NCBI GenBank assembly: GCA_902537725.1
Contig: CACBCD010000006.1
Location: 1 to 59,174, forward strand
Direction: 5' to 3'
From: an uncultured PS1 clade bacterium
Lineage (GTDB): Bacteria > Pseudomonadota > Alphaproteobacteria > MED-G09
Length of the DNA: 59,174 nt
Program-made: the position numbers and the translations under genes
In this document: positions 13,911-18,590 of the stretch, piece by piece
Position numbering within the stretch: the first letter of the stretch is position 1
How the letters are laid out: the number at the start of each line of letters is the position of its first letter
The notes under the pieces: generated by a model
The model's database searches: none
The model's input: the letters and a program-made list of their open reading frames with translations, nothing else
Told to the model about the DNA's origin: nothing

Positions 13911-13949
13911 ATATATTATTTATACATAATATATATTATGCGCATAATT

Positions 13950-14870
13950 ATGATTAAATTTATAACAAAGAGAATCCTTATAGCTATACCTACTCTACTG
14001 ATAATAATCGCTTTTAGCTTTTCAATGATGAGAGTTGCTCCAGGCGGACCTTTTACTAATGAGAGAGCTTTACCCCCTGAAATAGAAAAAAATATTAATG
14101 CTGCATATAATCTTGATAAACCAGTCTATGAGCAATTTTATATTTACATGAAAAATATAACCAGAGGTGACTTTGGGCCTTCTTTTAAATATAAAGATTT
14201 TTCAGTTAAAGAATTAATTCTCAATGGATTACCTGTAAGTGTTACTCTAGGCTTATCTGCGATAATTATCTCATTGTTTTTAGGCTCTTTATTAGGAATT
14301 ATAGCCGCTATAAACAGAAATACTATTTTTGATTATTCTGTAATGGGTGTCTCATTAGTAGGCATTTGTGTTCCAAGCTTTGTCATGGCTCCATTACTAT
14401 CGCTTTTTTTTAGCTTATACATGGGAATTTTACCGACTTCTGGCTGGAATAATGGAAATATACTTAATCTTATTCTACCAATAACTGCTTTATCTCTACC
14501 TCAAATTGCTATTATTTCAAGAATGATGAGGGCAAGCACTATTGAGGTATTAAACTCAAATTTTATACGTACAGCTAAGTCAAAGGGTTTAAATGAGTCC
14601 TATATAATCAGAAAACACGTAATTAGAGCATCAATTTTACCAATTGTAGAATATTTAGCCCCTGCCTCTGCAGGTTTAATGACGGGATCAATCATCATTG
14701 AACAAATATTTGGTTTACCTGGAATTGGAAGATATTTTGTTGTTGGTGCATTACAAAGAGATTATACCTTAGTAAGCGGTGTATTAATTTTATATGCTTC
14801 CTTATTAATACTTTTAATCTTAATTACAGACATTGTCAGGGCAATTTTAGATCCAAGGGTCAAAATATAA
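13950..14870 (+). CDS. oppB: Peptide/nickel-type ABC transporter permease (OppB/DppB-like)
   Basis: The 306-aa permease begins MIKFITKRILIAIPTLL, the usual OppB first helix, followed by the periplasmic RVAPGGPFTNER segment. It has about six transmembrane helices and the EAA coupling loop around RTAKSKGLNESYIIRKHVIR. ATG 13950 fits the family start. ATG 13938 is also in frame. It leads an oppB-oppC-oppD-oppF run with spacings of 4, -26 and 0 nt. No periplasmic binding protein gene is present on either side, so the substrate (peptide, nickel, opine or other) is not determined. Confidence 0.9.
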   Translation: MIKFITKRILIAIPTLLIIIAFSFSMMRVAPGGPFTNERALPPEIEKNINAAYNLDKPVYEQFYIYMKNITRGDFGPSFKYKDFSVKELILNGLPVSVTLGLSAIIISLFLGSLLGIIAAINRNTIFDYSVMGVSLVGICVPSFVMAPLLSLFFSLYMGILPTSGWNNGNILNLILPITALSLPQIAIISRMMRASTIEVLNSNFIRTAKSKGLNESYIIRKHVIRASILPIVEYLAPASAGLMTGSIIIEQIFGLPGIGRYFVVGALQRDYTLVSGVLILYASLLILLILITDIVRAILDPRVKI

Positions 14871-14874
14871 GATT

Positions 14875-15768
14875 ATGAATAAAAAACATATAAAAATAAT
14901 CGAGGATTATTCCAATATAAAAGGCAGGTCCCTATGGGTTGATGCACGAAGAAGATTATTTCAAAACAAAGCAGCTGTTATATCTCTTTTTTTAATATTT
15001 TTAATTGCTTTTTTGTCATTTTTTGGTCCTTTTTTTCTAAAATATAGCTTTAGTGATACTGATTGGAATTCAATATATTACCCCCCTAGTCTCAATAATG
15101 GTCATTTTCTTGGTACTGATGGTAATGGAAGAGATTTATTGGTAAGAATTTTATATGGAGGTAGGCTTAGCCTAACCATAGGTATTTTAGCAACACTTGT
15201 TAGTGTTTTTATAGGTGTAATTTACGGTACTATTGCTGGATATTTTGGTGGTAAGTTAGATATTTTTATGATGAGAGTTGTTGAGATTCTCTATGCAATG
15301 CCCTATTTAATATTTGTTATATTATTAATGGTAGTATTTGGAAGAAATATCTACTTTCTATTTATAGCTATAGGTGCTGTTGAGTGGTTAACAATGGCAA
15401 GAATTGTAAGAGGACAAACTATCTCATTGAAAGAAAAGGAGTTTATTGAAACAAGTAAAGCTCTTGGTCAATCAAATTTTATGATTATATGGAAACATAT
15501 AATACCAAATTTAGCTGGCCCTATAGTTGTCTATATAACTCTTATGGTGCCATCAGTAATCATTTTAGAGAGTTTTTTATCTTTTCTTGGATTAGGTGTT
15601 CAAGAGCCATTAACATCTTGGGGTGTTTTAATTTCAGAAGGTTCACGAGAAATGGAAACGGCATGGTGGTTATTAATTTTTCCAGGCATATTTATGACAA
15701 TAACACTGGCCTCATTAAACTTTATTGGAGATGGATTAAGAGATGCAATTGACCCAAAAGAATATTAA
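14875..15768 (+). CDS. oppC: Peptide/nickel-type ABC transporter permease (OppC/DppC-like)
   Basis: The 297-aa second permease has a cytoplasmic N-terminal tail, a first helix at about 35-55, the HFLGTDGNGRDLLVRILYGGR motif region typical of OppC, and an EAA loop around ETSKALGQSNFMIIWKHIIPN. It ends LNFIGDGLRDAIDPKEY, the canonical OppC tail. It pairs with OppB to form the membrane channel. The last 26 bases overlap the oppD start, so translation is coupled. Confidence 0.92.
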   Translation: MNKKHIKIIEDYSNIKGRSLWVDARRRLFQNKAAVISLFLIFLIAFLSFFGPFFLKYSFSDTDWNSIYYPPSLNNGHFLGTDGNGRDLLVRILYGGRLSLTIGILATLVSVFIGVIYGTIAGYFGGKLDIFMMRVVEILYAMPYLIFVILLMVVFGRNIYFLFIAIGAVEWLTMARIVRGQTISLKEKEFIETSKALGQSNFMIIWKHIIPNLAGPIVVYITLMVPSVIILESFLSFLGLGVQEPLTSWGVLISEGSREMETAWWLLIFPGIFMTITLASLNFIGDGLRDAIDPKEY

Positions 15769-16564
15769 AAACAATAATTTACTAATTAATATTAATAAAT
15801 TGAATGTATTTTTTAACACTCCAGAAGGCCTTTTACATGTTGTAAAAGATGTGAATTTTAATGTAAAAAAGGGAACATGCCTTGGTGTTGTTGGTGAGTC
15901 TGGGTCTGGAAAAACTCAAACTTTTTTCTCTATAACAGGTTTATTAGCAAAAAATGGTTATGCTGAGGGAGAAGCAAATTTCAAAAATTATAATTTAATT
16001 ACATGTGATGATAAAATAAGAAGAGGTTTTCTTGGTAAATCAATAGGTTTTATTTTTCAAGATCCAATGACTAGTCTAACACCACATTTGAAGATTGGTG
16101 ATCAGTTAGCTGAAATAGCTATTTATCACAAAAAAATCACTAAAAGTGAGGCTTTACAAAGAGCAGCTGAGGTTATGGATGTAGTGAAGCTTCCAAATAA
16201 TAGAGATATAATTAATTCTTACCCACATGAATTATCAGGCGGAATGAAACAAAGGGTAATGATTGCAATCTCATTAATGTGTGAGCCAGATCTTATAATT
16301 GCAGATGAACCAACCACGGCTCTTGACGTTACTACACAAGCAGAAATACTGAGTATATTCAATGATTTAAAGAATAATTTAAATATAGGACTAGTATTAA
16401 TATCTCATAATATTGGAGTTATAGCTGAAACATCAAATCAGGTATTAGTGATGAAAAATGGACAAATTTTAGAAAATGGAAATACACATGAAGTTCTGAC
16501 AAAACCAAAAAATGACTACACTAAACATTTGTTATCATGCATTCCCCCATGGATAAAAAATTAA
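15743..16564 (+). CDS. oppD: Peptide-type ABC transporter ATPase (OppD-like)
   Basis: The nucleotide-binding subunit has Walker A GESGSGKT, Q-loop FQDPMTSL, signature LSGGMKQR, Walker B LIIADEPTTALD and H-loop SHN. At 273 aa it stops soon after the core. Typical OppD proteins are about 320-340 aa with a C-terminal oligopeptide-transporter extension carrying several cysteines. Here only SCIPPWIKN remains after the YTKHLL motif. The start ATG lies inside the oppC end (26-nt overlap) and no better internal start is visible. Confidence 0.9.
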   Translation: MQLTQKNIKNNNLLININKLNVFFNTPEGLLHVVKDVNFNVKKGTCLGVVGESGSGKTQTFFSITGLLAKNGYAEGEANFKNYNLITCDDKIRRGFLGKSIGFIFQDPMTSLTPHLKIGDQLAEIAIYHKKITKSEALQRAAEVMDVVKLPNNRDIINSYPHELSGGMKQRVMIAISLMCEPDLIIADEPTTALDVTTQAEILSIFNDLKNNLNIGLVLISHNIGVIAETSNQVLVMKNGQILENGNTHEVLTKPKNDYTKHLLSCIPPWIKN

Positions 16565-17371
16565 ATGATAAATAAAGAGAAAATTCTTCAGGTTGATGAT
16601 TTAAGCTTATATTATAAACTTTCAAGAGGCTTATTTAAGTCTCCAATTTTGATAAAAGCTGTTGATAATATTAGCTTTTCTTTATTTGATGGTGAAACAT
16701 TAGGTATTGTTGGTGAATCTGGCTCTGGCAAATCAAGTTTATGTAGACTCATTTTAAAGCTTATAGGAAAAACATCAGGATCTATTAAGTGGTTTAATAA
16801 AGATATTTATAGTCTTAATTTTTCTGATTTAAGAGAATTTAGAAAATCAGTTCAAATTATCTTTCAAGATCCATATGGAAGTTTGGATCCTCGCATGACG
16901 ATAGGTAAAATTATTGCTGAACCATTAGATATTTATAATAAAACTCTTAAAAACAAACAAAAAGAAGAAATTGTTATAAATGTTATGAAAGATGTTGGCT
17001 TATCAGATGAGTTATTCAATCGTTATCCTCATGAATTATCAGGAGGTCAATGTCAGAGGGTTGGAATAGCAAGATCATTAATTAATAAGCCTTCTGTTTT
17101 AATCTGTGATGAACCAGTTTCAGCACTGGATTTATCAATACAAGCGCAAATACTCGATTTAATAGAGTTATTAAAAGAGAAATATAAATTAACAGTTATT
17201 TTTGTAAGCCATGATCTTTCAATAGTTAAATCTATTTGTGACAGGGTTATCGTCCTTAAAAATGGAAATATTATTGAGAGTAATGATACTGATATTTTAT
17301 TTAGTAACCCTAATAGCGATTATACGAAAAAATTAATTTCTTCAGTTCCCTCTCCTATTCCGATAAAATAG
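16565..17371 (+). CDS. oppF: Peptide-type ABC transporter ATPase (OppF-like)
   Basis: The second ATPase, 268 aa, starts on the base after the oppD TAA. It contains Walker A GESGSGKSS, FQDPYGSLDPRMTIG (a strong OppF marker), signature LSGGQCQRVGIARSL, Walker B LICDEPVSALD and SHDLSIV. Like OppD it is short and ends just after YTKKLISSVPSP, without the usual C-terminal extension. Together OppD and OppF would power the OppBC channel. A biotin-carrier remnant begins 5 nt after the stop. Confidence 0.9.
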   Translation: MINKEKILQVDDLSLYYKLSRGLFKSPILIKAVDNISFSLFDGETLGIVGESGSGKSSLCRLILKLIGKTSGSIKWFNKDIYSLNFSDLREFRKSVQIIFQDPYGSLDPRMTIGKIIAEPLDIYNKTLKNKQKEEIVINVMKDVGLSDELFNRYPHELSGGQCQRVGIARSLINKPSVLICDEPVSALDLSIQAQILDLIELLKEKYKLTVIFVSHDLSIVKSICDRVIVLKNGNIIESNDTDILFSNPNSDYTKKLISSVPSPIPIK

Positions 17372-17375
17372 AAGT

Positions 17376-17585
17376 ATGAAAATTTAGACCGAAATTCAAG
17401 CTGTAATTTGGAAGATTAACCTAAAAGTTGGTCAAAAAGTTAATATTGGCGATACCGTTGTTATTTTAGTGTCAATGAAGATGGAAATACCAATAGAATA
17501 AAAGCTCAGAGGAATAGTTAAGGAGATATTAATTAACGAGGGTGACCATGTTAATGAAGATCAAAAACTTATAACTCTAGAGTAA
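17376..17585 (+). pseudogene. Biotinyl-domain carrier protein (acyl-CoA carboxylase BCCP type) with two in-frame stops
   Basis: Reading from ATG 17376 gives 69 codons plus TAA, the usual length of stand-alone biotinyl carrier proteins. The frame contains the segment AVIWKINLKVGQKVNIGD, then VVILVSMKMEIPIE with the biotin-accepting Lys in MKM (codon 17478-17480), and finally GIVKEILINEGDHVNEDQKL. All spacing is intact, with no indel. However, codon 4 is TAG (17385-17387) and codon 42 is TAA (17499-17501), just after the biotin motif. It follows oppF by 4 nt. The options are recent pseudogenisation, two sequence errors, or readthrough. No carboxylase partner genes are in the window. Confidence 0.75.
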
Positions 17586-18035
17586 TTACTGGGCTCTAGG
17601 CGCAACTGCTAAAATAGTATCAGCGCCAGACCTTTTTCTGCTTATGCTTATAATTGCTGTTCTTAAATCTTTTTCATAAACCAAGAATATTTGATTACCT
17701 TGTTGTTCCATTATCAAGAACCAACCTGTATCAGGCATGTGCTCTTTGAAATAATTAAATACTGCATTAGCATCCAAACCAGAGTTAAAATATATTTGTC
17801 CGAACCAATTTTCATCACTACCTACAACAACTGATTTGGTTAAATCTAAAAAAGTTTCTGGAGGAAAAGCTACATCACTGAATTGATTTAAAACATCCTC
17901 TTGTGTTGGTTCATTTGCTTCCGAAACCTCAGAGACAGATGTTGAGCTTCCAGGATTAGTTAAAGATGAAATTTCAGCACATGACGCTAGTGTAAAAACT
18001 ATTATAAAAATAAAAAAGGTACGAAAAAAAGACAT
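17586..18035 (-). CDS. Predicted lipoprotein, function unknown
   Basis: The 149-aa product has a lipoprotein signal: hydrophobic residues 5-16, then lipobox LASC with Cys19. A Ser/Glu-rich linker follows, then a compact domain (about 50-149) containing NWFGQIYFNSGLDANAVFNYF and GNQIFLVYEKD. This is a small alpha/beta domain I cannot name. AAGGAG lies 7 nt before the ATG, one of the best ribosome sites in the window. The stop abuts the biotin-carrier remnant on the opposite strand. It is probably anchored in the outer membrane facing the periplasm (no Asp at +2). Confidence 0.75.
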   Translation of the reverse strand: MSFFRTFFIFIIVFTLASCAEISSLTNPGSSTSVSEVSEANEPTQEDVLNQFSDVAFPPETFLDLTKSVVVGSDENWFGQIYFNSGLDANAVFNYFKEHMPDTGWFLIMEQQGNQIFLVYEKDLRTAIISISRKRSGADTILAVAPRAQ

Positions 18036-18102: not shown

Positions 18103-18486
18103 TTAAAAAATACACATCAATGAGGCCAAAATTATTAATGCCCAACTTCCAATTGCTCCTGCTGCTCGAGGAATATTGTCAGGGCCTAAGCCATCTTTAG
18201 AAATGATTCCATATGCGTGTGCACCTCTACAAAGAATGAAAGCTATTCCAAAAATATGAACAAAAAATTCACTTCCTCGATACTCCATTAACATAAGGAG
18301 AATTAACATTAAGGGAGCGTGCTCAACTAAATTACCAAAAGCTCTTGATCTTTTGAGCAATATATCATCATCCCCAGCAATAGCTGTTTTTATCTCTACC
18401 CTTCTAAATGCTGTATTTAGAGCTAAAGCAACAGCCATAATACCAAGAATGCCAGCATAAAGAGCTGTACCATTAAGATCATCCAT
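18103..18486 (-). CDS. MAPEG family membrane protein
   Basis: The product is about 127 aa with four predicted transmembrane helices. It has the MAPEG pattern VEIKTAIAGDDDILLKRSRAFGNLVEHAP, with the conserved R-x-x-x-N-x-x-E cluster that binds glutathione in eukaryotic members. Then come a CRGAHAYGI helix and a short C-terminal helix. Bacterial MAPEG proteins have poorly known substrates. The start is placed at the second ATG (18486), since GAGG 6 nt before it fits. An ATG at 18498 is in frame. It is divergent from the symporter gene. Confidence 0.8.
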   Translation of the reverse strand: MDDLNGTALYAGILGIMAVALALNTAFRRVEIKTAIAGDDDILLKRSRAFGNLVEHAPLMLILLMLMEYRGSEFFVHIFGIAFILCRGAHAYGIISKDGLGPDNIPRAAGAIGSWALIILASLMCIF

Positions 18487-18590
18487 TAAAAACCTCATTA
18501 ATAAATAAAATTAATTACTCGTTGATTCGTTAAAAACAGCAATATTTAAGATCTTATTTGTATTTATTTAAATTTGATATACTTTGAGCT

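Follow-up and report, generated by a model that had tools for sequence, protein, structure and literature searches.

A biotin carboxyl carrier gene with two nonsense codons and a broken biotinylation motif downstream of oppF in a marine alphaproteobacterium: very probably a recent pseudogene and the likely relic of an acyl-CoA carboxylase

The stretch of DNA analyzed here (the window, 59,174 nucleotides) is contig 6 of a 1.0-Mb draft genome (G000; 45 contigs, 56% complete) of a marine alphaproteobacterium of the PS1/OCS116 group, whose congeners include the OCS116 cluster single cells AG-390-A19 (G007) and AG-390-I16 (G002) and the PS1-clade assembly AH-321-D15 (G008). On its forward strand lie the ABC transporter genes oppB-oppC-oppD-oppF (13938–17371), which are intact and keep an identical order in all relatives examined. 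Four bases downstream of the end of oppF at 17371 begins the remnant of a gene for a stand-alone biotin carboxyl carrier protein (17376–17585, forward strand). It is abutted by a convergent gene for a small putative lipoprotein (17586–18035, reverse strand), which is conserved throughout the family and has no match in Pfam or NCBIfam, and then by a MAPEG-family gene (18103–18498, reverse strand), used here as a synteny marker. A scan for promoters and terminators between 17200 and 17800 gave nothing informative at the pseudogene.

The frame from 17376 to 17585 comprises 69 codons plus a stop and translates as MKI*TEIQAVIWKINLKVGQKVNIGDTVVILVSMKMEIPIE*KLRGIVKEILINEGDHVNEDQKLITLE*, with no indels and with its own terminator, TAA, at 17583–17585. 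When the stops are masked, the translation matches the Biotin_lipoyl profile of Pfam (PF00364) with 54.4 bits (E 1.1e-14; cut-off 22.1 bits), far above chance, and it shares 87% of its amino acids, and 188 of 210 nucleotides, with the intact orthologue of the nearest relative, G007. The original prediction, which described a carrier of 69 codons starting at ATG 17376 directly after oppF, free of indels, still endowed with MKM and interrupted at codon 4 (TAG) and codon 42 (TAA), is borne out in all these respects. The first premature stop (17385–17387) replaces a residue that is Lys (Arg once) in 11 copies from the same family and variable among 79 homologues; the second (17499–17501) replaces a Ser that is present in 11 of 11 same-family copies, at a position occupied by Ala or Ser in 77 of the 79 homologues. 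The biotin attachment site itself (MKM, codons 34–36, with Lys35; 17475–17483) is still encoded.

The same prediction held that the gene was intact except for the two stops, and this part does not stand. Codon 32 (17469–17471), three residues N-terminal of the biotinylated Lys35, is GTG and encodes Val, while Glu occupies this position in all 79 homologues, drawn from many phyla, and likewise in each of the 11 same-family copies; the window therefore retains MKM and has lost the Glu of a biotinylation motif, E-(S/A)-M-K-M, that is otherwise invariant and that the orthologues have in full. Relative to G007, the three codons changed from AAG to TAG (codon 4), from GAG to GTG (codon 32) and from TCA to TAA (codon 42), and none of these changes is found in the 11 same-family copies. 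Further replacements peculiar to the window in this comparison are V16L, E64K and I67T. Because E32V breaks the motif, the damage to the gene is beyond repair by readthrough.

Uninterrupted copies of the carrier gene occur in 11 genomes, four of the same genus (G002, G006, G007 and G008) and seven of the same family (G010–G016). The carrier follows oppF in every neighbourhood inspected (detailed synteny is available for 8 of the 11), and the order in these relatives is oppB-C-D-F, carrier, putative lipoprotein gene and MAPEG gene (both on the reverse strand) and a dicarboxylate-type symporter gene. Since the same-family relatives have an intact copy there, the location 3′ of oppF is, judging from gene order, ancestral in the family, and the idea that a carboxylase carrier is not expected after oppF is contradicted both by this and by Limnohabitans, where carrier, carboxyltransferase and Opp-type transporter are clustered. 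With close relatives keeping an intact orthologue at this locus, the window copy is very probably a unitary pseudogene. In three congeners, G003 (97% complete), G004 (96%) and G009 (83%), the block is otherwise syntenic and the carrier is absent; the putative lipoprotein gene marks these empty sites, at which the gap between it and oppF measures 78, 48 and 35 nt, respectively. The empty sites imply that the carrier is dispensable in the genus and has been lost before. The other PF00364 matches in the window's genome, at its 56% completeness, are an AccB-type protein (170 aa), a carboxylase alpha subunit (659 aa) and a probable E2 subunit (424 aa); the remainder of the genome could contain a further copy of the carrier. 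Outside the PS1 clade, the closest relatives of the carrier are mostly from marine Acidimicrobiia.

The tempo of change at the locus was evaluated by comparing the window with G007 and polarizing the differences with G002 and G008 as outgroups. Neighbouring proteins of the two genomes are 95–99% identical, against 87% for the carrier, which accumulated 6 replacement and 7 silent changes on the window branch and 1 of each on the G007 branch. On the window branch, the flanking genes, taken together with gltB and the POT symporter gene considered below, show 60 replacement and 196 silent changes in 4,746 codons, from which 0.87 replacements would be expected in the carrier (Poisson P 0.0003); its amino-acid sequence has thus changed at about seven times the rate of neighbouring genes, which indicates relaxed constraint on the lineage that bears the lesions. 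The ratio of polarized carrier changes between the window and sister branches (13:2) points the same way (P 0.03), and the contrast of replacement and silent changes, taken by itself, gives weak evidence (Fisher P 0.09). An excess of A/T to G/C changes was considered as a peculiarity of the carrier and rejected, given that the flanking genes show the same pattern, which is probably an effect of polarizing with divergent outgroups.

A second lesion is found elsewhere in the same genome. Beyond AccA, AccD and a PccB-like subunit, a PF01039 search identified an extra carboxyltransferase of ~515 aa, here labelled CTa, in G002, G007, G008, G010, G014 and G017, where its gene lies beside or near gltB and mostly directly downstream of a gene for a POT oligopeptide symporter. 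In the window's genome gltB and POT are intact on contig 1, and between them (about 136150–136600; L267) the first few codons of CTa are fused to its last ~52 codons. The 9-bp repeat TGGAAAAAG is present in two direct copies 1,387 bp apart in G007 and in a single copy at the G000 junction, a configuration that identifies recombination between short repeats as the apparent origin of the 1,387-bp deletion. The deletion is out of frame, its length not being divisible by three, and it may be later than the decay of the carrier, as the tail left in G000 has barely diverged. As with the carrier, a second copy of CTa could reside in the part of the genome that the assembly does not cover. An in-frame TAA in the POT gene of G000 was examined as a possible further lesion and rejected: it is a normal terminator, the reference protein being slightly longer.

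The gltB region is unevenly represented among the relatives. In G005, whose oppF locus is unassembled, the start of gltB is assembled and no CTa tail was found upstream of it; the gltB gene of this genome (G005:C60:246-4877; L264) has one in-frame TAG. The gene is missing from the assemblies of G004, G006, G009, G012, G013, G015 and G016, two of which are about 96% complete. Very long repetitive genes adjoin the locus in relatives, so that its absence may be a systematic assembly gap and not a loss.

Several lines of evidence bear on whether the carrier and CTa belong together. In six marine Acidimicrobiia genomes (L068, L071–L074 and L096), CTa orthologues that are 59–66% identical lie 15–35 nt from the carrier gene in convergent orientation, and in a proteobacterial locus (L092) CTa is just upstream of the carrier on the same strand, at a spacing within the same range. 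In Limnohabitans (L136:918-9991) the order is TetR, a CTa-type carboxyltransferase, two Opp-type ATPases, a family 5 SBP, OppB, OppC, the carrier, an AMP-binding acyl-CoA ligase and an amidohydrolase; no description of function was found for this cluster joining CTa, an Opp/Dpp-type transporter, carrier and acyl-CoA ligase, and searching the literature for a connection of stand-alone carriers with peptide transporters returned nothing on point. In a maximum-likelihood tree, CTa of the PS1 clade groups with the Acidimicrobiia enzymes, L092 and L136 in one clade (support 100/100), separate from PccB and from the carboxyltransferases found beside Bacillus carriers. The two genes are thus linked in other phyla, and in the PS1 clade they are unlinked. 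There, both are intact in G002, G007, G008, G010 and G014 and both are dead in G000, with a locus unassembled in many other genomes, among them the carrier-less G003, G004 and G009, in which the CTa locus is the missing one. This co-occurrence across genomes is no more than suggestive of pairing. An intact carrier without CTa is seen in the assemblies of G006, G013 (96% complete), G015 and G016, all of which likewise lack the gltB locus. The biotin carboxylases found in the window's genus are AccC and that of the 655–659-aa alpha subunit, with no third, so that the carrier would depend on borrowing one of these two, probably AccC. The distribution of biotin protein ligase (PF03099) is too patchy to be informative. 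A 555-aa carboxylase beta chain on contig 12 of G001 (L262) and its neighbours look Bacteroidota-like, and this contig is probably contamination of the congener assembly.

Of the three options raised at the outset, very recent decay, assembly error and readthrough, the first is supported by these observations. That sequencing or assembly error created the lesions in a gene that is intact in the real cell is very unlikely: the genome is indeed a draft, of the fragmentation and completeness given above, yet the flanking genes and the gltB locus contain 0 internal stops in about 4,750 codons against 2 in the 69 codons of the carrier (chance about 0.0002 if errors fell at random), a residue conserved in every homologue is changed as well, and the gene of the probable partner is independently deleted. 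Readthrough or recoding of both stops to yield a full carrier could draw on the preserved frame and length and on the surviving MKM site. It would require both of two different stop codons to be read, although TAA also serves as the normal end of the gene; no relative has a stop at these codons, E32V harms the motif itself, amino-acid changes are in excess and the probable partner enzyme is gone, all of which makes this explanation highly improbable. A shortened functional product restarted after the TAG is scarcely conceivable: codon 32 (GTG) and codons 34 and 36 (both ATG) offer possible starts, but all such products end at codon 42 and have at most about 10 residues, and a biotinyl domain requires both halves of its fold.

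A different kind of alternative accepts the pseudogene and questions the partner, proposing that the carrier served CTb-like or other carboxylases and that the loss of CTa in the same genome is a coincidence. Several genomes have an intact carrier and no assembled CTa, notably G011, which has both the carrier and gltB and whose only carboxyltransferases are of the CTb and CTc types; lacking CTa, its carrier must serve another partner there. It is also the case that a different type of carboxyltransferase accompanies the carriers of Bacilli. Against this, CTa is the sole unassigned carboxyltransferase found in the genus, barring the suspected contaminant contig in G001, the Acidimicrobiia that harbour the closest non-PS1 relatives of the carrier have CTa next door, and carrier and CTa are dead in the same genome. 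On balance, a coincidence of this sort is considered unlikely.

The window copy is, with high confidence, a recent true unitary pseudogene and most likely the relic of an acyl-CoA carboxylase that is being lost as a unit. In the proposed mechanism, the intact 69-residue carrier, as the physical partner of CTa, would probably pass carboxyl-biotin to this ~515-aa subunit, and the biotin carboxylase step would probably be provided by the shared AccC, so that carrier, CTa and AccC together would constitute an acyl-CoA carboxylase to which no substrate is assigned. With CTa deleted and the carrier bearing two nonsense codons and a broken motif, the whole enzyme would be disappearing from the window's genome, and the product of the pseudogene is presumably absent from the cell. 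On a broader scale, it is proposed tentatively, as a possibility somewhat short of an even chance, that an undescribed split biotin-dependent acyl-CoA carboxylase (a single-domain carrier plus CTa, borrowing AccC), tied to uptake of the Opp/POT type, exists in marine Acidimicrobiia, PS1-clade alphaproteobacteria and some Burkholderiales, and that it has been repeatedly lost as a unit in the PS1 clade even though its genes are unlinked there.

Decay of the carrier alone would be ordinary gene loss in a small-genome marine bacterium; the informative part is the co-loss together with the recurrent link to Opp-type transporters. Two unlinked genes that are dead in one genome, and both kept in the five relatives whose assemblies cover the two loci, are a natural marker. 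The pairing would make one probable enzyme out of two orphan genes, with an apparent connection to peptide-type transporters, and offers a testable function for a carrier that is usually annotated just as "biotin/lipoyl-binding".

Known systems resemble both components in part. Like the carboxyltransferases of the PccB/MmdA type (PF01039, TIGR01117), CTa is a PF01039 protein, of 515 aa, and its nearest solved relatives are annotated as methylmalonyl-CoA decarboxylase alpha and propionyl-CoA carboxylase beta chains; it is only 31% identical to the genome's own PccB-like subunit and scores 308 bits against TIGR01117, far under the cut-off of 999. As for the carrier, the biotin/lipoyl-binding family NF004547 (PRK05889) has the same size and motif as the intact orthologue, which reaches 70.8 bits, just under the curated cut-off of 75. 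The best solved-structure match of that orthologue is BLAP/YngHB of Bacillus subtilis (PDB 1z6h, NF006079), likewise a stand-alone biotinyl domain of ~70 residues, with the motif ESMKMEIPI; against this profile the orthologue scores 76.8 bits, under the curated cut-off of 95. BLAP is biotinylated in vitro by B. subtilis BirA, and the neighbours of its gene are annotated as carboxylase subunits (PMC4016012). The carboxyltransferase beside the Bacillus carriers belongs to another clade, 31–33% identical to CTa, and the window copy differs from BLAP/YngHB in being dead.
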